Assembly (NCBI GenBank): GCA_903911225.1
Contig: CAIWCT010000228.1
Location: forward strand, 1 to 36,488
Length of the DNA stretch: 36,488 nt
Reading direction: 5' to 3'
From: an uncultured delta proteobacterium
Lineage (GTDB): Bacteria > Desulfobacterota > WTBG01 > CAIYCZ01 > CAIRTM01
A program made the position numbers and the translations under genes. Positions 155 to 33,772 of this stretch are shown here, piece after piece. Position 1 is the stretch's first letter. Each line of letters begins with the position of its first letter. The notes under the pieces were generated by a model that saw only the letters and a program-made list of their open reading frames with translations, did not search any database and was not told where the DNA came from.

Positions 155-3100
155 ATGCAGATGGATATCAACTGGACGCGCGGCAACGGTACGGCCTGTG
201 CTGTCTTTTTGAAACAAACTGATACCGGCATGCCGTTGCCTAGCGATGGCGGCACATATCTTGGAAATTCCATTTTTAATTCGGCAAATGATGCCGGCGC
301 CGGCTGGCAGTGCGTTTACAGCGGCGCTGGCTCGGGTCCGGGTTCATCCGCCAACAGCGTTAGAGTGACCAATCTGCAGGCAGGTAAAATTTACCGAGCC
401 ATGGTCTGCGAGTATATCTCGACAGGGGCAGGAACCGAAGTATACAACAGATTTTCCGGCCCCAATAATCCGACCAACAGCGGCGTGCCGGGTATCGGCT
501 GGACGCCGATGGCGAGCCCCGTAACAACCTTCACACTACACAGCGTCTGGGGCAGCGCTCCCAACAATGTTTTTGCCGTGGGAGATGGCGGCACCATACT
601 GCACTACGACGGCTTAGTCTGGACCATCCAGTCAAGCGGTACAGCAGAAGCCTTATGGAGTGTATGGGGCACCGGGCCAGGCAATGTTTATGCTGCAGGA
701 CTGAACAGGACCTTGCTGCACTACGACGGTATATCTTGGACGCCAGTAGCGGGGCTTCCCGGGGGGGTAACAGCCTCAACAGGCCTTATCAGTGTTTGGG
801 GAAATTCGCCAAATGATATTTTTGTAGTCGGCGAATCTGAAACGATTCTGCATTATGACGGCTCATCATGGACAAAGCAGTCAACAGGGGCTACTTTTGA
901 AAGCCTTTTCAGTGTCTGGGGCAGCGGCACCAGCGATGTCTATGCTGTCGGTACAAACCGCAAAACGGTGCATTATAACGGCATATCTTGGTCTGTGGAC
1001 GCGACCGTACCCGCATCATCTTCCGCACTTGAAGGAATATGGGGCACTTCAGGCACCGATATTTTTGTCGTAGGTAATGTCGGCTCGGCGACAACGATAT
1101 TGCATTTCAACGGAGCATCCTGGACCGAGTCTGATACTACAGCGATTGGCTACATCAACCTTCAGGGAATCTGGGGTGTTTCGGCCAATAATATCTATGC
1201 CGTTGGTACGGGTGGCAATATACTTAATTTTGACGGCTCAGCCTGGCAGAAAACGAACAGTGGTTCAGCGGCAAACTTGTATGGCATTTGGGGGACAGCC
1301 GCCGATAATGTTTTTGCCGTTGGCACCAATGGCACTATTCTGCGCTTCGGCCCAACGGTGCAGTCTACGACCACCACCACGATTATTCCAACGACGACAA
1401 CGACGGTGTTCAGCACCATACCGACGACTACAACAACTATTTTCAGCACCTCTACATCCACGTTCCTGCCAACGTCAACTACCACCATGATATCGACAAC
1501 GACGTCTATACCTATTCCGGGCTGGAATGTTATGGCGCAGGGAATGACTTTTCAAACTCTGTGGAGTGTCTGGGGCAGTTCTGGCAGTAATGTATTTGCC
1601 GTGGGCGACGGCGGCACGATACTGCATTACAACGGCACCGGTTGGGCGCCAAGTACCTTCGGCTCTACAGCGCTTCTTGCTGTTGCGGGTGCGGGCGAAA
1701 ATGATGTTCATGCCGTGGGCGCCGGCGGCACGATACTGCATTATAACGGCTCCTCATGGATTACAGAACCAAGCTACACAGGATATGATCTCAAGGGCAT
1801 CTGGGTTGAACCGGCAATAGATTCTTTTGTAGTTGGTTCAGGCGGCACCATATTGCATGACAACGGAACGGGCTGGACCGCCATGAGCAGCGCCATAGCT
1901 ACTCCTCTCAATGCCGTCTGGGGTAGTTTGTCAACTGATGTTTTTGCCGTGGGTGCGGGCGGCGTCATACTGCATTACGACGGTACATCATGGATCCCCA
2001 TGACAAGCGGCACGGGCAATGAGCTGAACGGCGTCTGGGGCAGCGGGCCTTCGGATGTTTTTGCCGTTGGCTTTATGGGCTCCATACTGCATTACGACGG
2101 CTCCGTATGGTCGGCCATGATAAATCCTTTACCGTCAATGCCCCTTTACAGTGTCTGGGGCAGCTCAGACAGCGATGTGTATGCCGTCGGTGCAGCCAGA
2201 ACGATACTGCACTATAACGGCACAGTCTGGGATACTATCACAACAGGATCATTTGAGAATTTGTGGGGCGTCTGGGGCAGTGCCTCCAAAGACGTTTTTG
2301 CCGTTGGTTATATGGGCTTAATACTTCATTTTAATGGCGGAACCACGGGACTCCACGCAGCCGTCCCCGACACGGGGCAGATTAAGTGCTACGATAATAC
2401 AACTGAAATCGCCTGCCCATTGTCTGGGCAGCCGTACTACGGGCAGGATGCGCAGTACACCATTAATACGCCGAAGTACACCAAGCTTTCTGACAATGGC
2501 ACTGCCCTGCCCGACAATGCTTCTTTCTGGGCTGCTGTGCATGATGATGTGACCGGGCTTATTTGGGAAGAGAAGCATAATATGGGTGGTGGAACAAATT
2601 ATGCCGACCCCAACAATGCCGACAACGTTTATACCTGGTTCGACAACAACTCAGCTACCAACGGCGGCAATCCGGGCATATCCGGGGCCGGCACCGACAC
2701 GATGGATTTCATCAGAGACCTGAATGCGGCAAATTACGGCGGCTTTAACGATTGGCGCCTGCCGACTGCTGCCGAACTTTTCAGCATGACAAATCTTAAC
2801 ACGTATGGCCCGGCCATTGATCCAGCATATTTCCCTAATACGGTAACTTCTTTCTACTGGTCTTCCAGCACCTGCGCACAGTCTTCCAGCCTCGCCTGGA
2901 ATTTGGTTGCCTACTACGGTTACGTGAACAGCCTCAACAAGACCTACAGCTACTATGCCCGGGCAGTGCGCGGCGGACAACTTTTACCATTGCGTGATTA
3001 TGTCATCAGTATAGACGGCACAGTTTCTGATTTGAGCACGGGGCTCATGTGGCAACGGGATACGGCGCCGGGCTTATATAGCTGGCAGCAGGCCCTTGCC

Positions 3101-6100
3101 TACTGTGACAACCTGACGCTTGGCGGCTTTACCGACTGGCGCCTGCCTACACCCAAAGAAATGGTGAGCATCGTCGATTACAGCAAAATATCCTCCCCAG
3201 CTATAGACGCGACGGTTTTTCTCAATACTCAGACAGCTTTTCCTTACTGGTCGTCCACTACCTTTGCATACTTTGTCTCCGATGCATGGATTGTGAACTT
3301 TACCGATGGTGCCCCGGACTTCGGCGGGAAGATCGACAGCAAAAATGTCCGGGCTGTGCGTTCCGGACAGTCTGGTACATTGGGCGCTGTGAACATTTCC
3401 TCATTCACTGCAGCTCCGCTCAGCGGGCCTGCAACGCTGCCGGTCACGTTTAACTGTATTGCATCGACAGACCTTGCAGGCAGCAGCGTTGCACAGTACC
3501 GGTGGGATTTCAACGGCGACAATGTCATCGATGAAGTAACCGCTGTCAACTCTACCTCATATAATTACACCACACCCGGGAGTTACAATGCCAGGGTTAT
3601 TGTCGTGAGCAATAAGGGCGAGTTCGCCGGCAGCCAGAGGGTGACAATAAATGTGTTCGGCGCCACCTCGACAACAACTTCAATCTTCAGCACGACAACC
3701 AGTATTTTCTCGACCTCTACAACCACCATCCCGTCGACACCGGCATGGACGCCCATGCCCAGCGGCACAACGATGTTTCTTAATGCCGTTTGGGGCAGTT
3801 CCGGCACTGATGCTTTTGTCGTAGGAGATAATGGCACCATTTTGCATTACAACGGCAGTTCATGGGCTTCCATGTTGAAAGTTACGACAAAACTTTTGAA
3901 TGGTGTCTGGGGCTCCGGCGGCAGCGATGTGTTTGCCGTAGGCAATAACGGCATCATAGCGCACTATAACGGCTCGACATGGACCGTCATGTCAAGCAGC
4001 ACCGGCGAACCCTTGAATGCCGTGTGGGGGAGCTCGTCAACTGATGTTTTTGCCGTGGGCGGCATGGGCGCTATTGCGCATTATAACGGCACATTGTGGT
4101 CAAACATGACAAGCGGCGTCACGACAGCGCCGTTAAACGGCGTTTGGGGGTTTTCCGGCACTGATGTATTTGCCGTGGGCGGGACGGGTATCATACTGCA
4201 CTATAACGGCACATCATGGTCGCCCATGACAAGTGGCTCATCGGAAGTTCTCTATGATGTCTGGGGCAGCTCGGGCACGGATGTCTATGTGGCCGCGAGC
4301 AATGGCAAAATTCTGCATTACAACGGCTCGACTTGGAGCACCATGACAACCCCAACGTCGGAATATCTCCTGAGCATATGGGGCAGCGGCTCTAACGATA
4401 TCTTTGCCGTGGGTAATGCGGGAGTCATTGTGCATTATGATGGCTCTAACTGGCAGATCTTGAACAGCGGCACCATAGACAGCCTTCATGGTGTTTGGGG
4501 TAACCCCGGTGTTGGTGTTCTTGCTGTTGGCGCAAACGGCACAATCCGGCGGCTTGAGCCTCCTTCAGCGCCTGCGTGGCAGCCCATGGCAAGCAGCACC
4601 ACTGACTGGTTGTTTGATGTCTGGGGCCCGTCGCCAAACGATATTTTTGCTGTCGGTGGCGTCAACCCCTTGCCCACCAGCGGCGGCACTATTCTGCATT
4701 ACAACGGCATCACCTGGTCGCCCATGACAAGCGGCACGATGAATTGGCTGCGCAGCGTGTGGGGCAGCTCCGGCACCGATGTGTATGCAACTGGTGATGC
4801 GGGCACGCTGCTGCATTATAATGGCATAGCATGGAGCACGATCAGTACGGGCACGACAGAAGCCCTGAGCGGTATTTGGGGTTTTTCCGATGCCGATATA
4901 TTTGTTGTCGGTGGATTGGGCACCATACTCCATTATAATGGCACGTCATGGAAGACGATGGACAGCACTACGACCAATAATCTTTTCGGAGTGTGGGGTA
5001 TATCGAACAACGATGTGTATGCCGTGGGGACCGGCGGCACCATACTGCGCTACAATGGTTTGATCTGGTCAGCCATGACAAGCGGCACGGCCACCTATCT
5101 GAATACCGTCTGGGGCATGTCATCCATTGATGTTCTTGCCGCCGGGGCAGCATCAACAATAGTCCAGTATGACGGCATTGGCATTACCTGGTCAACCTCG
5201 GGGCAGGGCACGATGCCCACCTTTGATGTTAACGATATCTGGAGCGCGCCAGGCTCAGATGTTATTCTCGTGGGAAATGGCGGCAACATTGGCCATGATA
5301 ACGGCACGGGCTGGAAGCCCATGCCCAGTGGTACAACCGATGACCTGAGCGGCCTTTGGGGGTTTGCTCCAAATGACATGTATGCCGTCGGACGCAATGG
5401 CACCATACTGCATTACACCAATAGCGTCGTGACCACCACCACATCCGTATTTGCAACGACATCCATCTTGAGCACAACAACGACCACGATGCCGACAACC
5501 TCTACGAGTTCTGTTGTGATTACAACAACTATCCCGGCCACAACGACGTCGGCCATTGTTACCACCACCATTCCGACCGGCACGACGTCGGTAATCATCA
5601 CAACCACGACCACCACAGCCCCGCTGCAGTTTTACGCTGATTTCACTGCTACGCCAGTGCTCGGGCCTGCGCCGCTTGACGTGCAGTTTACCGATGCCTC
5701 CAGCCCGAACGCCTCGGGTCATACATGGGATTTTGGTGACGGCACGGGCGGCACGGGAAAAACTCCGAAGCATGTTTACCAGATAACAGGTGACTATACT
5801 GTTAATCTCTCCGTCACAGGGCCTGACGGTGCGCCGTTGAAAAAGACAAAGATAGCTTATATCAAGGTGATTGATACCGCGCCGGTGGCTGATTTTACAG
5901 CATCTGTCACCGAGGGGGCTGCACCGCTTTCCGTTCTATTTACCGATACCTCAACGGGTATTATTACGGCCCGGGAATGGAGCTTTGGTGATGGCGAAAC
6001 AAGCGATCAGGCCAGCATACGGCATACCTTTGCCGCCGCCGGGTCGTATACCGTGAGCCTGAAAGTTGCGGGCCCTGACGGAATATCCACAAAAATCCGA

Positions 6101-7687
6101 GAGGCATTTATTACGGTCAGTCCCGGCTTTCGCACATCGGCTGTTTCAGGCCGGGTTACGGGGAATGCTCAGGCTGGCATCGATATCAATCTCTCGGGTG
6201 CAAATTTGAGCCTGACCACTCAAACCGGCAGTGACGGGACATATGATTTTGCAGGCATTTTGAACGGCCAGTACCGTGTAACACCCATACTGCCGGGATA
6301 TGTATTTGATCCGACATGCACACAGCTGCGGGTTTTTGGACGTGATCTGACCGGCATTGATTTTAGAGCGATTCCTTCCGGCCCGAACATTGAGCAGGTA
6401 TATATAACTCCCGACAGCACATCGGCCGATGGGATGGCACAGTTCAGCCTGTTTGCCAGGGTGACACATCCAGACGGACCTGGCGCTATTGCCTCGGTGA
6501 CAGCCGATCTTACAGCAATCGGTGGTCTGGCTGATGCTGCGCTTCGCGACGACGGTACGGCAGGAGATGCTGCGGCAGGAGATGGCCTGTACACGCTTGT
6601 GGCGACTGTGTCTGCAAATACGGATCCGGGGCTCAAGCCTCTCGGGGTTACGGCACGCGATATGGGCGGTGCTGCCCGGACTGCATTTGCCGGGCTTTCT
6701 GTGTTTAAACAGTTTACCGATACGGTTGCCCCCGATGAAACAAAGGGCTTCAAGATCAACAATGGACTGGCTGGCCAGACACTGGTGTTCACGCTGAACT
6801 TGAACGGCGGCGGGGGAGGCGGCGGCAGCCCGTCTTTGCATGGCCGAACAGAGACAAGCGCCTGTACGCCCACGGTGGTGGTCCTGTCGCCCGGTGAAAA
6901 GACTTCCACCGGCCAGACCGGTTCTCAAAACGGCAGTTCAGGGCAAATAACGATTGAGGTTCCCAATGCCGAAGCAGGCCAGTGGACCTGTCAGGTCAGC
7001 AATAATGCATGCGCCACAACAGTCAGTTTCGGTCTTGAATCAACCATAGCCGGGATGGGCATTGTGTCTGGAATGGTGGTTGATACCCGCACGGGCACTG
7101 GCATCGGCGGTGTCAATCTGCTGACCACGGGAGGCATCAGCTCTCAGACCGATGAAGGAGTGTATGTCATGCTGCATCCCTCGGGGATGTTCAGCATGAG
7201 CTGTTCGGCTGAAGGATTTTTACCCGCAACACGGCAACTTACGGTTAATGCCGGCGGGTCAACTGAACTCTATGTGGCTCTCGATAACGGAACCTTAACC
7301 GGAAGCTGCTTTCTGACAAAATCGCTTGGCGAAAACAGCGCGCAACTGCAGACGCTGCGGCATTTTCGTGATTCAGTGCTTGGCGCGACAGCACAGGGCA
7401 AGCGGTATGCAGGGCTTTATTACCGCCATTCGCCCGAGATACTGGCTATGATGCAGAAAGACAGGCAACTGGCTGAAGACATCTACCGATGCGCAAGCAG
7501 CCTGATGCCGCTGGTTGAGCAGATGATGCAGGGCAGGGAGCCCATGCCCGACGTTCAGCAGCGCAGCCTGTTTGCGGCTTGCCTTGAGAAAATACGGAGT
7601 CACGCAAAACCGCAGCTAAAGGCTGAAACAGAGCGCGTGCTGAAGTTGCTTGAAAAGAACCAGCCTTTTAACAGCATTCTGCGCTGA
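155..7687 (+). CDS. Giant repeat surface/secreted protein: four 7-repeat propeller blocks, Lcl, PKD, CFI-box-like C-terminus; 5'-truncated
   Basis: 2510 residues from the first in-frame ATG; the frame is open back to 86. Approximate domain order: FN3-like remnant (1-110); propeller block 1 (115-401); Thr-rich linker (405-455); block 2 (456-729); two Lcl/DUF1566 domains with DWRLPT and YWSS motifs (737-943, 948-1071); PKD-like (1079-1168); Thr/Ser linker; block 3 (1197-1467); block 4 (1474-1757); long Thr linker (1759-1825); two PKD domains with WDFGDG/WSFGDG cores (1827-1989); carboxypeptidase-regulatory-like (1997-2076); Gly-rich region (about 2225-2232); a second regulatory-like fold (2302-2382); CFI-box-like C-terminal domain beginning CFLTKSLGE (2383-2510). 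Each propeller block has seven repeats. There is no signal peptide, and the N-terminus starts mid-domain right after the mobile-element end, so the original start was probably lost or lies upstream of the element. Likely role is surface adhesion or sensing; the substrate is unknown. Confidence 0.88.
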   Translation: MQMDINWTRGNGTACAVFLKQTDTGMPLPSDGGTYLGNSIFNSANDAGAGWQCVYSGAGSGPGSSANSVRVTNLQAGKIYRAMVCEYISTGAGTEVYNRFSGPNNPTNSGVPGIGWTPMASPVTTFTLHSVWGSAPNNVFAVGDGGTILHYDGLVWTIQSSGTAEALWSVWGTGPGNVYAAGLNRTLLHYDGISWTPVAGLPGGVTASTGLISVWGNSPNDIFVVGESETILHYDGSSWTKQSTGATFESLFSVWGSGTSDVYAVGTNRKTVHYNGISWSVDATVPASSSALEGIWGTSGTDIFVVGNVGSATTILHFNGASWTESDTTAIGYINLQGIWGVSANNIYAVGTGGNILNFDGSAWQKTNSGSAANLYGIWGTAADNVFAVGTNGTILRFGPTVQSTTTTTIIPTTTTTVFSTIPTTTTTIFSTSTSTFLPTSTTTMISTTTSIPIPGWNVMAQGMTFQTLWSVWGSSGSNVFAVGDGGTILHYNGTGWAPSTFGSTALLAVAGAGENDVHAVGAGGTILHYNGSSWITEPSYTGYDLKGIWVEPAIDSFVVGSGGTILHDNGTGWTAMSSAIATPLNAVWGSLSTDVFAVGAGGVILHYDGTSWIPMTSGTGNELNGVWGSGPSDVFAVGFMGSILHYDGSVWSAMINPLPSMPLYSVWGSSDSDVYAVGAARTILHYNGTVWDTITTGSFENLWGVWGSASKDVFAVGYMGLILHFNGGTTGLHAAVPDTGQIKCYDNTTEIACPLSGQPYYGQDAQYTINTPKYTKLSDNGTALPDNASFWAAVHDDVTGLIWEEKHNMGGGTNYADPNNADNVYTWFDNNSATNGGNPGISGAGTDTMDFIRDLNAANYGGFNDWRLPTAAELFSMTNLNTYGPAIDPAYFPNTVTSFYWSSSTCAQSSSLAWNLVAYYGYVNSLNKTYSYYARAVRGGQLLPLRDYVISIDGTVSDLSTGLMWQRDTAPGLYSWQQALAYCDNLTLGGFTDWRLPTPKEMVSIVDYSKISSPAIDATVFLNTQTAFPYWSSTTFAYFVSDAWIVNFTDGAPDFGGKIDSKNVRAVRSGQSGTLGAVNISSFTAAPLSGPATLPVTFNCIASTDLAGSSVAQYRWDFNGDNVIDEVTAVNSTSYNYTTPGSYNARVIVVSNKGEFAGSQRVTINVFGATSTTTSIFSTTTSIFSTSTTTIPSTPAWTPMPSGTTMFLNAVWGSSGTDAFVVGDNGTILHYNGSSWASMLKVTTKLLNGVWGSGGSDVFAVGNNGIIAHYNGSTWTVMSSSTGEPLNAVWGSSSTDVFAVGGMGAIAHYNGTLWSNMTSGVTTAPLNGVWGFSGTDVFAVGGTGIILHYNGTSWSPMTSGSSEVLYDVWGSSGTDVYVAASNGKILHYNGSTWSTMTTPTSEYLLSIWGSGSNDIFAVGNAGVIVHYDGSNWQILNSGTIDSLHGVWGNPGVGVLAVGANGTIRRLEPPSAPAWQPMASSTTDWLFDVWGPSPNDIFAVGGVNPLPTSGGTILHYNGITWSPMTSGTMNWLRSVWGSSGTDVYATGDAGTLLHYNGIAWSTISTGTTEALSGIWGFSDADIFVVGGLGTILHYNGTSWKTMDSTTTNNLFGVWGISNNDVYAVGTGGTILRYNGLIWSAMTSGTATYLNTVWGMSSIDVLAAGAASTIVQYDGIGITWSTSGQGTMPTFDVNDIWSAPGSDVILVGNGGNIGHDNGTGWKPMPSGTTDDLSGLWGFAPNDMYAVGRNGTILHYTNSVVTTTTSVFATTSILSTTTTTMPTTSTSSVVITTTIPATTTSAIVTTTIPTGTTSVIITTTTTTAPLQFYADFTATPVLGPAPLDVQFTDASSPNASGHTWDFGDGTGGTGKTPKHVYQITGDYTVNLSVTGPDGAPLKKTKIAYIKVIDTAPVADFTASVTEGAAPLSVLFTDTSTGIITAREWSFGDGETSDQASIRHTFAAAGSYTVSLKVAGPDGISTKIREAFITVSPGFRTSAVSGRVTGNAQAGIDINLSGANLSLTTQTGSDGTYDFAGILNGQYRVTPILPGYVFDPTCTQLRVFGRDLTGIDFRAIPSGPNIEQVYITPDSTSADGMAQFSLFARVTHPDGPGAIASVTADLTAIGGLADAALRDDGTAGDAAAGDGLYTLVATVSANTDPGLKPLGVTARDMGGAARTAFAGLSVFKQFTDTVAPDETKGFKINNGLAGQTLVFTLNLNGGGGGGGSPSLHGRTETSACTPTVVVLSPGEKTSTGQTGSQNGSSGQITIEVPNAEAGQWTCQVSNNACATTVSFGLESTIAGMGIVSGMVVDTRTGTGIGGVNLLTTGGISSQTDEGVYVMLHPSGMFSMSCSAEGFLPATRQLTVNAGGSTELYVALDNGTLTGSCFLTKSLGENSAQLQTLRHFRDSVLGATAQGKRYAGLYYRHSPEILAMMQKDRQLAEDIYRCASSLMPLVEQMMQGREPMPDVQQRSLFAACLEKIRSHAKPQLKAETERVLKLLEKNQPFNSILR
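539..5425 (+). repeat. 28 tandem ~40-residue propeller-type repeats in four groups of seven
   Basis: The repeat core is VWGSSGTDVFAVGDGGTILH followed by YNGxSW. Groups lie at about 539-1356, 1560-2340, 3780-4555 and 4615-5425. The last unit of each group lacks the closing SW, as expected at the end of a closed ring. Stretches are also conserved at DNA level (for example ACTGCATTACAACGGC and CCCATGACAAGCGGCAC recur), so recombination between units and assembly collapse are both possible. Confidence 0.85.
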
Positions 7688-28177: not shown

Positions 28178-29140
28178 GTGCTGGATCGGGCAAGGAAAGT
28201 ATTCGCAATAGAAGCCGAGTCGATACTGAAACTGCAGGACAGACTTGATGAAAATTTCATCAAAGCGGTTAATATGCTGCTTGTCTGCACTGGTAAGGTG
28301 ATTGTAATCGGTATAGGAAAATCAGGCATCATCGGTCGTAAAATCGCCTCTACGTTTGCCTGTTCCGGAACACCGGCCTTTTTTTTACATCCTGCCGAGG
28401 GTATTCATGGAGATATCGGCATGATGTCGCCAGACGATGTGGTGCTTGCCATATCCAATAGCGGTGAGACTGATGAAGTGCTTAAGGTGCTGCCCATGGT
28501 TAAACGCATGGGGCTTCCCCTTATCGTGCTTACGGGCAACAGCGAATCAATGCTGGCCCGAAACGGCGACGTAGTGCTTGATATCGGGGTGAAAGAAGAA
28601 GCCTGTATTCTGAACCTCGTGCCCACTGCTTCAACAGCAGCAACTATGGCCATGGGTGATGCTCTTGCCATTTCAGTGCTTGAGCGTCGGGGATTCAATG
28701 AAGAAGATTTCGCCATGCTGCATCCCGGCGGGGCGCTTGGTAAGAAGCTGTTGTTGCGCGTGGAAGATCTCATGCATGTCAGTGATGCCGTGCCCATGGT
28801 GTCTCAAGAGGATTCAATGAAAGTTGTGCTTATTGAGATGACATCCAAACGCATGGGGATAACCGGAGTGTGCGATAGCTGTGAGAATTTTGTTGGCGTT
28901 ATAACAGACGGTGATTTGCGTCGGGCTCTTGAAAAACGCTGTGATATACTTTCGGAAAAAGCCCGGGATGTGATGACCCTGTCTCCTAAAACCGTTACAA
29001 AGAACGCCCTTGCCGCTGCTGCGCTTCGGTTAATGGAGCGGCATGCCATCACATCTCTTTTTGTGCTGTCTGAGGCGGAGCCAAAAAAGGTTGAAGGCCT
29101 TATACATCTTCATGATATACTGAAAGCAGGTATTGTCTGA
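28178..29140 (+). CDS. kdsD: Arabinose-5-phosphate isomerase (KpsF/GutQ family)
   Basis: 320 residues from GTG 28178, with AAGGGGT upstream. It interconverts ribulose-5-phosphate and arabinose-5-phosphate, supplying KdsA. An N-terminal SIS sugar-isomerase domain (about 30-185: IGIGKSGIIGRKIAS, SNSGETDEVL, VPTASTAATMAMGDALA, HPGGALGK) is followed by two CBS domains (about 200-318: VEDLMHVSDAVP, ARDVMTLSPKTV), which usually sense nucleotides or metabolites. Length and architecture are standard. Its place between kdsA and kdsC supports the Kdo role over a gut-operon role. Confidence 0.95.
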   Translation: MLDRARKVFAIEAESILKLQDRLDENFIKAVNMLLVCTGKVIVIGIGKSGIIGRKIASTFACSGTPAFFLHPAEGIHGDIGMMSPDDVVLAISNSGETDEVLKVLPMVKRMGLPLIVLTGNSESMLARNGDVVLDIGVKEEACILNLVPTASTAATMAMGDALAISVLERRGFNEEDFAMLHPGGALGKKLLLRVEDLMHVSDAVPMVSQEDSMKVVLIEMTSKRMGITGVCDSCENFVGVITDGDLRRALEKRCDILSEKARDVMTLSPKTVTKNALAAAALRLMERHAITSLFVLSEAEPKKVEGLIHLHDILKAGIV

Positions 29141-29159: not shown

Positions 29160-29678
29160 ATGGATATTACGCAAAAGGCACAGCTCGTAAAATTGCTTAT
29201 TCTTGATGTCGATGGAGTTATGACCGACGGCAAGGTCGTCTATACCGACAGCGGCGAAGAGTTGAAATTTTTTGACAGCCGTGACGGACACGGCATCAAG
29301 ATGCTTATGCGCACAGGCATAGAGGTTGCAATCATAACCGGGCGGATTTCAAAGGCTGTGGAGCACAGGGCCGCAAATCTGGGAATTGCCATGGTGTATC
29401 AAAAGGCGTTGAATAAAATTGAGGCCTATGAGGAAATTGCTGCTTTGAAAAGCCTTGCCGATACGGAGATCTGTGCCATTGGAGATGATTTGCCCGATAT
29501 ACCTCTTTTGCGCCGGGCAGGGCTTGCGGTAGCCGTACCGGGTGCTGTAGATGAGGTTCGGTTGTCGGCCCATTATACGACACGTCATGCCGGTGGAGAT
29601 GGCGCTGTACGGGAAGTATGTGATCTGATTATGAAGGCGCAGGGCTCGTGGCAAGCCGTTATATCGCGCTATTACTGA
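29160..29678 (+). CDS. kdsC: 3-deoxy-manno-octulosonate-8-phosphatase
   Basis: 172 residues, a capless (tetrameric) HAD phosphatase that removes phosphate from Kdo-8-phosphate. Motif I is LLILDVDGVMTDG with nucleophile and acid Asp; next come SGEELKFFDSRDGHGIKML, motif II in IITGRIS, the Lys in YQKALNKIEAYEE, and motif IV IGDDLPDIPLL. Length is usual for KdsC. It completes the Kdo-making set kdsA-kdsD-kdsC upstream of the lpt genes. Confidence 0.95.
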   Translation: MDITQKAQLVKLLILDVDGVMTDGKVVYTDSGEELKFFDSRDGHGIKMLMRTGIEVAIITGRISKAVEHRAANLGIAMVYQKALNKIEAYEEIAALKSLADTEICAIGDDLPDIPLLRRAGLAVAVPGAVDEVRLSAHYTTRHAGGDGAVREVCDLIMKAQGSWQAVISRYY

Positions 29679-29733: not shown

Positions 29734-30303
29734 ATGAACACTATAAAAAAAATTCGTTTCATACTTTTATTTGTTGTCGCCGTAGCGGTTTCAGTCGTCG
29801 TCGGGATGGCGATCGGCACCAAGAAGCAGCAGATTGTCATTAAAACCGATACTCCCCAAACAGTAAAGTCCGGTCCGAGTGTTGAGCTGAAAAATGTTGC
29901 ATACTCAACAACAAATAATGATAATTTTAAAGAGTGGGATTTAACCGCGGAATCCGCCCAGTACTTACAAGCCGAGAAGCGCGTTATTCTTGAAAATCTT
30001 TTAGTTAATGTTTACCGCCCCAATGGTAAGATATATATAATACGGGGCCAACATGGGGATTTAAATACGGAATCCCGGGACATAAAGATGCATGGCGCCA
30101 TATGGGGCGTCATGCCCGACAATACAACCATACAGACCGAAACCATCGATTATGAGCATGCTAAAAGACTTATAACAACGCAGGATAAGATTTTTATAAA
30201 GCGAAACGGGAAGTTTGCCTTGGAAGGAAAAGGCATGATAATAGATATGGCTAATGAAAAAATGACAATTTTAAGTAATGTAAAGGCGCTGGGGAGCAAA
30301 TGA
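29734..30303 (+). CDS. lptC: LPS export periplasmic-bridge protein LptC
   Basis: 189 residues. A single N-terminal membrane anchor (about residues 6-28) is followed by a periplasmic beta-jellyroll pattern (VELKNVAYSTTNND..., WDLTAESAQYLQ, NGKIYIIRGQHGDLNTESRDIKMHG). LptC anchors the periplasmic bridge to the LptBFG transporter. The family has low sequence conservation; the call rests on the fold pattern plus context between kdsC and lptA. Its stop overlaps the lptA start (ATGA), indicating translational coupling. Confidence 0.9.
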   Translation: MNTIKKIRFILLFVVAVAVSVVVGMAIGTKKQQIVIKTDTPQTVKSGPSVELKNVAYSTTNNDNFKEWDLTAESAQYLQAEKRVILENLLVNVYRPNGKIYIIRGQHGDLNTESRDIKMHGAIWGVMPDNTTIQTETIDYEHAKRLITTQDKIFIKRNGKFALEGKGMIIDMANEKMTILSNVKALGSK

Positions 30304-31547
30304 AAAAAAATATCTTAATTGCTATTTTACTGGTTGTACAGCTTGTGCCCTTTGCGGCGCGAGCCGAGCAGGATATTGCGGTGAGTGCAGCTGTCCTGCC
30401 GTTTGAATCATTCAGCGGGGAGCAGAAAACATCGGTTGGGCGCGATGTTGCAGTCAGGCTCCTGCAGCAGCTTTCCTTAAATCCGCTTATTGTGACGCCG
30501 GATATACAGGACATGAAAGCAGTCTTTGCAAAGGAGGATTTTGCAACACCCAGCGAGGACAGGCTGAAGGATGTTGCAAAACAGCTGAATGTTAATTTTC
30601 TGCTGTTTGGAAGCGTCACAACAGTAAAGGATGCAGTCAGTATTGATACTCAGGTTTTTTATAATTTTCCGGGAGACAACTATTTCAAAACGTATGCCGA
30701 AGGGCCTGAGCTTGAAAAAGTGATAGAAGAGCTTACCCGCAAGATCGAGCAGGAGCTGCTTGATAAGGCATCTGTGATTCCTGCAGCACAGCGGCCTAAA
30801 GTGAAAACGAAAAAGAAATTCGTTTCGCCGGCAGGTGCCGCTGATGCAGCAGACTATGAAAAGACTGTTAACCGGGAAATTGCTGATGAGCAAGAGCTGG
30901 AGGATGCTGAAGTGAGACATGTTAAGGCTTCAGAATCTCAACAGCTCGAGGATATGGAAGACGTCAATGCTCCAAAGCAAGCAGTGTCTAAAAAGAATAG
31001 AAAATCCGTTGAGCAGACTGCAGGCATGGAGAAGTCCGCTGGTCAGTCATCGGCACTGAAGGATGGGAAGAAGCAGGATGACGGCGATAGAAAAACAGAT
31101 AGTCTGCCATTAAAACTTAATCAGCCGGTAAATATAAGCTCTGATGCCCTGGAGTACAGCAACAAGGACAATAGTGCAATTTTCCGGGGGAATGTGGTTG
31201 CACGGCAGGGCGATATGGTCATGTTTGCCGATCAGATGGAAGCAACATATGCCGGCAAGTCCGGGGAGAAGAATGAAAGAGGCGGAATCAAGGAATTGAC
31301 CGCTACCGGCAATGTAAAAATTATACAGGGAGAACGAATCGCCACAGGGCAAAAAATTGTTTTTTACGGCGATGAACAGAAAATCGTCGCAACAGGCAAT
31401 CCGCGCGTGTGGCAGGGCGACAATGTAATAGTTGGCAGTAAAATAACGGTCTATCTGAAGCAGGACCGGAGCGTTGTCGAGGGCACCAATCAGGACCGTG
31501 TGAGCGCAACCATTTATCCCAAGGAAAAAACAGGAAAAAAGAAGTAA
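30300..31547 (+). CDS. lptA: LPS-bridge protein LptA with extra N-terminal TolB/CsgG-like domain
   Basis: 415 residues, more than twice the usual ~180. A signal peptide (1-23, ending ARA) is followed by a domain (about 24-155) of the form VAVLPFESFSGEQ-type opening (VSAAVLPFESFSG), LLQQLSLNPLIVTP, FLLFGSVTTVKDAVSIDTQVF; this is the pattern of TolB N-terminal/CsgG/FlgO-like folds that assemble at the envelope. A long charged linker (160-265) leads to the OstA/LptA beta-jellyroll (268-400: NISSDALEYSNKDNSAIFRGNVVARQG, LTATGNVKIIQG). LptA forms the periplasmic bridge for LPS. The fusion is the oddity; a reading error is unlikely because the frame is continuous and coupled to lptC. Confidence 0.9.
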   Translation: MKKNILIAILLVVQLVPFAARAEQDIAVSAAVLPFESFSGEQKTSVGRDVAVRLLQQLSLNPLIVTPDIQDMKAVFAKEDFATPSEDRLKDVAKQLNVNFLLFGSVTTVKDAVSIDTQVFYNFPGDNYFKTYAEGPELEKVIEELTRKIEQELLDKASVIPAAQRPKVKTKKKFVSPAGAADAADYEKTVNREIADEQELEDAEVRHVKASESQQLEDMEDVNAPKQAVSKKNRKSVEQTAGMEKSAGQSSALKDGKKQDDGDRKTDSLPLKLNQPVNISSDALEYSNKDNSAIFRGNVVARQGDMVMFADQMEATYAGKSGEKNERGGIKELTATGNVKIIQGERIATGQKIVFYGDEQKIVATGNPRVWQGDNVIVGSKITVYLKQDRSVVEGTNQDRVSATIYPKEKTGKKK

Positions 31548-31621
31548 AAAATTCTATACTTATAATCAGTGCAATTGACTGGAAATGTTATTGCATGCAG
31601 ATTTTGACGTGAAAGGTATTG

Positions 31622-32344
31622 ATGAGTCAGCTCAGATCAGAAGGTCTTGTAAAAATATTCGGTAAAAAAAAGGTTGTAGACACTATCTCCATCGAGGTGA
31701 ACAGGGGAGAGGTCGTGGGGCTTCTTGGACCCAATGGAGCGGGTAAAACAACAACTTTTTATATGCTGGTAGGAATATATAAGCCTGATGCCGGCAGAGT
31801 TTACTTTAACGCAGACGATATAACAGACTCTCCGATGTATATGCGGGCGCGCAAGGGCATTACCTATCTGCCACAGGAAACGTCAATATTCCGCAAGCTC
31901 ACGGTTGAAGAAAACATTATGGCCGTGCTGGAAACGCTGCCGATAACGCGTGAGGAAATGCAGGAGCGTCTTGAGGAGAACTTGCGGGAGCTCAGCATAG
32001 CACATATTGCCAAGCGAAAAGCCTACCTGCTTTCCGGCGGCGAGAGACGGCGCGTTGAAATTACCCGGGCTCTGGTGACCTCGCCACAGTTTATTCTTTT
32101 CGATGAACCATTTACCGGCGTCGATCCGATAGCTGTTCAGGATATTCAAAATATTATTCTGCGCCTGAGCGCTAAAGGCATCGGTGTGCTTATATCCGAC
32201 CATAATGTGCGCGAAACTCTTAATATCTGTAAACGAGCCTATATTATATATGAAGGCCGCGTGCTGGAAGCTGGTGAGCCTGAGAAGATTGTTCAAAGCA
32301 GCAGCGCCCGTGCCATATATCTGGGCGAAAAATTCAGCATGTGA
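31622..32344 (+). CDS. lptB: LPS export ABC transporter ATP-binding protein LptB
   Basis: 240 residues from ATG 31622 (the track uses a TTG one codon earlier; AAAGGT lies 6 bases before the ATG). LptB powers extraction of LPS from the inner membrane with LptF/LptG, which are not in the window. Walker A GPNGAGKTT, Q-loop TYLPQET, signature LSGGERRRVE, Walker B ILFDEPF and switch His in ISDHNV are all intact. The stop is 12 bases before the rpoN ATG. Confidence 0.96.
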   Translation: MSQLRSEGLVKIFGKKKVVDTISIEVNRGEVVGLLGPNGAGKTTTFYMLVGIYKPDAGRVYFNADDITDSPMYMRARKGITYLPQETSIFRKLTVEENIMAVLETLPITREEMQERLEENLRELSIAHIAKRKAYLLSGGERRRVEITRALVTSPQFILFDEPFTGVDPIAVQDIQNIILRLSAKGIGVLISDHNVRETLNICKRAYIIYEGRVLEAGEPEKIVQSSSARAIYLGEKFSM

Positions 32345-32356
32345 TAGTTGTCCGGC

Positions 32357-33772
32357 ATGGAACTCAAGCAACAACTTAAACTTTCTCAACAGCTGGTCAT
32401 GACACCTCAGCTGCAGCAGGCCATTAAGCTTCTGCAGCTATCGCGCCTTGAGCTTTCCGATCTTATCGCCCAGGAGATCAATGAAAACCCCGTGCTTGAT
32501 GAAACGCTGTCTCAGGAGCCTGAGGCAAAAGATGACGGCGGCGACCGGATTGACGAGCCTGCTGCAAGGGAAGAAAGAAAGACTGAGCCAACTGAGGATT
32601 TTGACTGGCGTAATTATGTCGACCGTTCGACTGGCTCTTCAGGCAGCGGCTATTTTGATGGGGGGGAGCAAGAGGACTATACACCTGCAATTACCCGCAA
32701 GACATCTTTTGCTGAACATTTACTCTGGCAGCTGCACTTATGTGACTTCGATGATCAGGGTATGGAGATCGGAGAGTACATTATCGGCAACCTTGATAAG
32801 GACGGCTATTTGCTGCTGTCGCCAGATGAGGTTGCAGGCGATCTGGGCGTCGACCGGCAGTGTGTCGAGGATGTACGCCGCAGAATTATCCGATTTGATC
32901 CTGTGGGTGTGGCCTCATGTGACCTGGCGGAGTGTCTGGCTGCTCAAGCCGAGATGCTGCCCTGCAACAGCGTGCTTATAAAGCAGATACTGCTCAGCTG
33001 CATGAAGGAGCTCGAGCGCAAGAGGTATCAAATAATTGCGAGGGATTTAAAAGTACCGCTCAAGGATGTGCTGGAAGCCTGTGAAATTATTGCCAATATG
33101 GAGCCGCGTCCGGGGCGGGCATTTAACGACAATGAAACGCAGTATGTCACCCCCGATATTTATGTCTACAAGTCCGGTGATGAGTATGTCGTGATGCTCA
33201 ACGAGGATGGCCAGCCCAAGCTTCGTATTAATTCGTTTTACAAGGATATTCTTGCCGGCAATAAGGTCAGCTCTGATAAGACAAAGGAGTACATTCAGGA
33301 TAAACTGCGCTCTGCGGTTTGGCTTATAAAAAGTGTTTATCATCGACAGTCGACAATTGTCAATGTTATGAAGAGTATTATCAAGTTTCAGCGCGATTTT
33401 TTCGACCAGGGCTCGGGCCATTTAAAACCACTGGTGTTGCGGGATATTGCAGAGGATTTGAGTATGCACGAATCCAATGTCAGCCGCATCACGACCAATA
33501 AATATGTTTTGACGCCGCATGGCATTTTTGAGCTGAAATATTTTTTTAACAGCGGGCTTCCTTCCGACAATGGGGAATCGATAGCCTCTGAAAGCGTTAA
33601 GAACATGATTAAAGATCTCGTCCAGAATGAGGATGCCCGCAGGCCGAGCAGCGATCAGGAGATCGTAAAAATGCTCAAGGCCAGGGGCGTTAATATAGCG
33701 CGTCGGACGGTAACGAAGTATCGTGAGATGTTGGGGGTTCTTTCCTCGTCAAAGAGGAAAAAACATATTTAA
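32357..33772 (+). CDS. rpoN: RNA polymerase sigma-54 factor
   Basis: 471 residues from ATG 32357 (an in-frame TTG nine bases earlier is the track start). Domain order: region I Gln/Leu-rich activator-binding segment (MELKQQLKLSQQLVMTPQLQQAIKLL), acidic region II, core-binding region around residues 120-300, helix-turn-helix DNA-binding region (MHESNVSRITTNKYV) and the RpoN box ARRTVTKYRE near the C-terminus. Sigma-54 recognises -24/-12 promoters and needs an enhancer-binding ATPase. It sits directly behind lptB and ahead of hpf and ptsN, the classical arrangement. Confidence 0.96.
   Translation: MELKQQLKLSQQLVMTPQLQQAIKLLQLSRLELSDLIAQEINENPVLDETLSQEPEAKDDGGDRIDEPAAREERKTEPTEDFDWRNYVDRSTGSSGSGYFDGGEQEDYTPAITRKTSFAEHLLWQLHLCDFDDQGMEIGEYIIGNLDKDGYLLLSPDEVAGDLGVDRQCVEDVRRRIIRFDPVGVASCDLAECLAAQAEMLPCNSVLIKQILLSCMKELERKRYQIIARDLKVPLKDVLEACEIIANMEPRPGRAFNDNETQYVTPDIYVYKSGDEYVVMLNEDGQPKLRINSFYKDILAGNKVSSDKTKEYIQDKLRSAVWLIKSVYHRQSTIVNVMKSIIKFQRDFFDQGSGHLKPLVLRDIAEDLSMHESNVSRITTNKYVLTPHGIFELKYFFNSGLPSDNGESIASESVKNMIKDLVQNEDARRPSSDQEIVKMLKARGVNIARRTVTKYREMLGVLSSSKRKKHI

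Follow-up and report, generated by a model that had tools for sequence, protein, structure and literature searches.

The window, i.e., the whole stretch of DNA that was analysed, is 36,488 nucleotides long and comes from an uncultured delta proteobacterium of the phylum Desulfobacterota (class WTBG01). It contains a locus with the gene order kdsD-kdsC-lptC-lptA-lptB-rpoN, in which lptA is encoded together with lptC and lptB. The three flanking ORFs were recognised as, presumably, kdsD, kdsC and rpoN, and these neighbours are kept in the class. The features of the locus are as follows:

28178-29140, + strand: kdsD (Kdo pathway), by recognition
29160-29678, + strand: kdsC (Kdo pathway), by recognition
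29734-30303, + strand: lptC, 189 aa (PF06835, 2.6e-17; TIGR04409, 7.1e-24)
30300-31547, + strand: lptA fusion, 415 aa, with an ATG start that shares 4 bases with the end of lptC
30300-30365, + strand: type I signal peptide, residues 1-22, MKKNILIAILLVVQLVPFAARA, cut before EQ at a site inferred from the AxA motif, read from the sequence
30375-30797, + strand: N-terminal domain of the TolB-N/LpoB/CsgG fold (N-domain), residues 26-166, predicted beta-beta-alpha-alpha-alpha-beta-beta-beta-alpha
30798-31112, + strand: charged linker, predicted to be disordered, residues 167-271
31113-31526, + strand: OstA/LptA jellyroll, residues 272-409 (Pfam, NCBIfam, Foldseek)
31619-32344, + strand: lptB, ABC ATPase, 241 aa (PF00005, 6.1e-37, and operon position)
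32348-33772, + strand: rpoN, by recognition

The C-terminal part of the lptA product is an LptA. It matches PF03968 (LptD_N/OstA) in Pfam at residues 278-389 (9.6e-21) and the LptA equivalog TIGR03002 in NCBIfam at residues 272-408, where its 89.5 bits exceed the cut-off of 71.7. The full-length AlphaFold2 model was matched by Foldseek to E. coli LptA (2r1a_C) with an E-value of 2.3e-10 and a TMt of 0.82, in agreement with a jellyroll fold. The protein is like E. coli LptA (TIGR03002/PF03968; PDB 2r1a) in its OstA jellyroll, its position in the lpt operon, its leader, and in being the only LptA found in the genome. It is unlike an ordinary LptA in carrying a folded N-domain of about 140 residues and a linker of about 105. 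The linker (105 aa, 40% D/E/K/R) has a pLDDT below 50 in the model, and its length in relatives varies from 67 to 218 aa.

The leader was read from a hydrophobic N-terminus, where residues 5-18 form the most hydrophobic stretch of the 415-aa protein, followed by the AxA site. A second leader ahead of the jellyroll was looked for in the sequence, and none was found. Since the sole leader sits before the N-domain, the jellyroll can be exported solely as part of the fusion, and an internal start that yields a separate, exported short LptA is ruled out. It is nearly certain that the gene encodes one continuous LptA with an extra N-domain. The initial annotation had proposed an N-terminal domain and a charged linker of about 105 residues ahead of the OstA jellyroll; this architecture was borne out in a single ORF, with a domain of about 140 residues (26-166). 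The interval then given, 30300-31106, covers the signal peptide, N-domain and linker (residues 1-269), whereas the whole gene runs from 30300 to 31547.

A search with PF03968 across the whole genome from which the window comes gave one match, i.e., no LptA besides the fusion was found. The same genome has its own LptE gene (G000:C369) as well as LptD, and each of the two was detected in 14 of the 17 available genomes of the class, which indicates that the Lpt machine is otherwise complete. Taken together with the operon context and the single PF03968 match, this suggests that the fusion is the working LptA of that machine, predicted to bind LPS and to bridge LptC to LptD.

Recurrence of the fusion in the class

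The fusion is present in 16 of the 17 class genomes, i.e., that of the window and 15 others; in the remaining one (G016, 76% complete), no LptA match was found. In 15 of the genomes, the window's included, it is a single ORF with the same neighbours, as far as the contigs reach and the genes were detected. In the sixteenth (G010, L009:1498-2733), one in-frame TAG between the N-domain and the jellyroll breaks the gene, which may reflect an assembly error, a split gene or decay. The named counterparts are all metagenome-assembled and labelled Deltaproteobacteria, Thermodesulfobacteriota, Proteobacteria or uncultured bacterium. An artefact of gene joining or assembly, or a chance join, is ruled out, since the fusion recurs in 15 further class genomes with the same neighbours. 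One of these proteins (L015:1030-2592, G012) also carries a C-terminal Cds6_C NTF2-like domain at residues 413-516.

Across the class, the N-domain alignment (A2) has a mean column identity of 52%, and a profile of the domain retrieves LptA in 16 of the 17 genomes at 1e-48 to 1e-60. In the tree, the N-domains of LptA group together in one clade (support 99/96), as expected from a single fusion in the ancestor of the class; the tree gives no choice between the BamA copy and the FG-GAP copy of the domain (see below) as its source. The dN/dS values between the window and a relative of the same genus, which are rough because synonymous sites are near saturation, were about 0.13 for the N-domain, 0.25 for the linker and 0.04 for the jellyroll. 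The N-domain is thus under purifying selection. This bears on the idea that the N-domain is a passenger cleaved off after export, so that an ordinary LptA does the work. The long, variable and unstructured linker would be a plausible protease site for such an event, but a conserved domain under purifying selection, behind the only leader of the protein, makes it very improbable.

Outside the class, no LptA-type match in 41 genomes extends to the N-domain; where these genomes do match the N-domain, it is on ORFs other than the LptA-type ones. A survey of 394 genomes of the phylum showed that, among the matches listed outside the class, LptA ORFs are mostly 150-290 residues long (open frame). 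The marked lengthening of LptA in the initial annotation is in line with this, as the window's protein has 415 aa. None of five longer LptA-type ORFs from outside the class matches the N-domain profile. Two of them (L144:2298-3386 of G182, 362 aa; L147:2202-3170 of G179, 322 aa) are LptAs whose N-terminal part is unassigned and whose operons showed no separate lptC. They are possible LptC-LptA fusions, in which an LptC part was not recognised by Pfam. The other three are a BamD-jellyroll protein, an LptA that proves short after placement of the start, and an ORF of 617 aa, probably LptD, whose jellyroll is close to the N-terminus. In the family f44 (e.g., G090, G119, G146), most near-complete genomes are without any PF03968 match; these organisms possibly lack LPS or have divergent LptA and LptD.

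Fold of the N-terminal domain

The lone N-domain sequence of the window's LptA gave nothing usable against Pfam, NCBIfam or the PDB. When PDB sequences were searched with the N-domain profile, just de novo TIM barrels and a thioredoxin were returned, which were judged to be chance matches. An AlphaFold2 model of the domain, made from a 49-sequence alignment, had a pLDDT of 88.4 and a pTM of 0.82. The best Foldseek matches of this model were LpoB (7.2e-5), GNA1162, the TolB N-terminal domain, CT253 and PelC, with a weaker match to CsgG (2.7e-3). The probability was 1.00 for LpoB, TolB, GNA1162 and PelC, at a TMq of about 0.5-0.64 (TolB up to 0.64). The predicted structure thus supports a TolB-N/LpoB/CsgG/PelC fold. 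LptE, in contrast, showed a weak and partial structural likeness far below that of LpoB and TolB (E 0.016, TMq 0.36); an LptE-like identity is ruled out by this, by the lack of a PF04390 match, and by the separate LptE gene of the genome.

Membership of a known family is a different matter. On 15 class members, Pfam matched FlgT_M in 10, LpoB in six (best 1.5e-5), FlgO in five and CsgG in three (best 4.2e-4), while TolB_N (PF04052) was matched in one of the 15 relatives at an E-value of 0.029. On the window's LptA, no Pfam match was found to TolB_N, CsgG (PF03783) or LpoB (PF13036). The domain therefore has a predicted fold like that of LpoB, the TolB N-terminal domain, GNA1162, PelC, CsgG and FlgO/FlgT (Foldseek E-values of 7e-5 to 1e-2), but the identity to these proteins is 10-16%, and the window's LptA lies outside the corresponding Pfam profiles. 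The TolB/CsgG-like assignment of the initial annotation consequently holds at the level of the fold, by Foldseek and by weak Pfam matches in relatives, and not as membership of the TolB_N or CsgG family. Scans of the single sequence came back empty; the similarity emerged from the predicted structure and from Pfam matches in relatives.

The fold raises two possible roles. One is that the N-domain acts as LpoB or TolB does and links the LPS bridge with peptidoglycan synthases or with the Tol-Pal machine, which would tie LPS export to wall growth or constriction. LpoB and the TolB N-terminal domain are the best structural matches, and LpoB gave the strongest Pfam match among class members. However, the likeness is one of fold, at the identities given above and with none of these Pfam families matched by the window's LptA, and the nearest relatives by profile are the copies on BamA and FG-GAP proteins, which renders such a role improbable. 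The other is self-assembly by analogy with PelC and CsgG, both among the fold matches, into an oligomeric collar that would set the spacing or the copy number of LptA bridges. This is a slim prospect, as the domains of LpoB and TolB share this fold and work as monomers.

Relatives of the domain on BamA and FG-GAP proteins

In the class, the N-domain profile also retrieves FG-GAP proteins and, in 16 of the 17 genomes, an ORF that either has the length of BamA or is truncated by its contig (about 2e-15 to 4e-22). POTRA repeats were found in all 20 BamA rows scanned, from 18 genomes, 14 of them of the class; the BamA of the window's genome is among these rows. The BamA of the window's genome, at the end of a 3 kb contig (L085), bears the N-domain, and the barrel half lies on L134. 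The former is downstream of what is presumably a lolD-type gene, and the latter is followed by genes that were recognised as, presumably, of the skp, lpxD and fabZ types.

Profile-profile comparison of the LptA and BamA N-domains gave 99.8% with an E-value of 2e-30 over 130 columns, and that of the LptA and FG-GAP N-domains gave an E-value of 2.7e-28 over about 130 columns, against less than 1% for six control profiles taken from the same operon (KdsC, LptC, LptB, KdsD, RpoN and the jellyroll). Judged by these profiles, the LptA N-domain is homologous over its whole length to those of BamA and the FG-GAP proteins. The positions P-F, G-S-x-T-K and S-x-D are common to the three contexts, whereas K130, E134 and G135 are conserved in the LptA copies alone.

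The BamA of the phylum (five POTRA repeats and an Omp85 domain) shares with LptA the homologous N-domain and its GSxTK...SxD motif. The two proteins differ in that POTRA1 follows closely in BamA, where LptA has a long linker, and in a K-x3-EG motif that is private to the copies on LptA. In the FG-GAP/VCBS-repeat proteins of the phylum, the homologous N-domain is followed by FG-GAP repeats instead of the jellyroll. The domain was found in 100 of the 118 phylum genomes sampled, for the most part on ORFs as long as a BamA or an FG-GAP protein. A stand-alone copy of 195 aa with a leader-like N-terminus adjoins a tilS-like gene in one class genome (L128:1675-2262, G016:C22).

A reverse arrangement was also found, in which BamD (YfiO TPR) is fused to an LptA-type OstA jellyroll. 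It occurs in the families f12, f13, f15, f25, f28, f29 and f58, where the f15 members and most f58 members were judged solely by full-length alignment to the G039 protein. The loci are L152:2275-3564, L135:4044-5660, L136:5217-7838, L137:5981-7288, L146:1382-2644 and L151:2925-4607. The genes lie outside the lpt operon, and the two genomes that were checked, G023 and G036, also have a normal short LptA. The protein at L136:5217-7838 (G036) carries a C-terminal Cds6_C NTF2-like domain.

A putative link between LPS export and outer-membrane protein assembly

The suggestion of the initial annotation that the fusion may tie the LptA bridge to another envelope complex appears to gain support from the presence of the N-domain on BamA in the same genomes. 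The reading tentatively preferred here, with somewhat less than even confidence, is that the N-domain serves as a tethered docking module, which would place the LPS bridge at a partner or site that is also used by BamA and so coordinate both machines. On its long flexible tether, the N-domain would dock either on BamA itself or on a periplasmic or outer-membrane partner that the BamA copy also recognises. The LPS bridge would then form where BAM assembles outer-membrane proteins, LptD among them, and the delivery of LPS and of protein would be coordinated as a result. LptD is itself a substrate of BAM (PMC10567701). The LptA-private residues K130, E134 and G135 could point to a partner that is different from that of the BamA copies.

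What speaks most against a reading specific to BAM are the FG-GAP copies. Since the N-domain is also found on these proteins, its use is not restricted to outer-membrane assembly, and it may serve the envelope more generally. In that case, it would be a periplasmic module of this phylum copied onto several exported proteins, which stabilises LptA or localises it, e.g., to the peptidoglycan or outer membrane, without being linked to BAM in particular, and its spread over FG-GAP proteins, BamA, LptA and a stand-alone ORF, in most of the phylum genomes sampled, is what would be expected of such a module. Nevertheless, FG-GAP proteins aside, the copies that were characterised belong to core parts of the two outer-membrane assembly machines, and the attachment to LptA is kept throughout the class under purifying selection. 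A generic module is considered rather unlikely.

The putative docking of LptA at a site shared with BamA is compatible with the BamD-jellyroll fusions, which are an independent hint of coordination between the LPS and BAM machines. A broader proposal would be that modules shared or exchanged between LPS transport and BAM in this phylum, namely the N-domain on LptA in one class and the jellyroll on BamD in other families, coordinate the two machines physically, such that LPS bridges form at the sites of outer-membrane protein assembly. This generalisation is less likely than not. The class-wide LptA fusion and the BamD-jellyroll fusions nevertheless give a concrete physical hypothesis, which can be tested with purified domains. 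The LptA fusion also shows that LptA, usually seen as a minimal bridge, can bear an accessory module.

LptA and TolB-N/LpoB-like domains are themselves known already. No description of the N-domain on LptA or BamA, of LptA/BamD fusions, or of links to FlgO/TolB domains was found in the open-access literature searched, which does not by itself prove novelty; a term search of a survey of the Omp85 superfamily (PMC4104836) showed neither FlgO nor CsgG. Elsewhere in the window, positions 155-7687 encode a protein of 2510 aa that contains two Lcl_C domains as well as PKD repeats and is probably a large surface or secreted protein.
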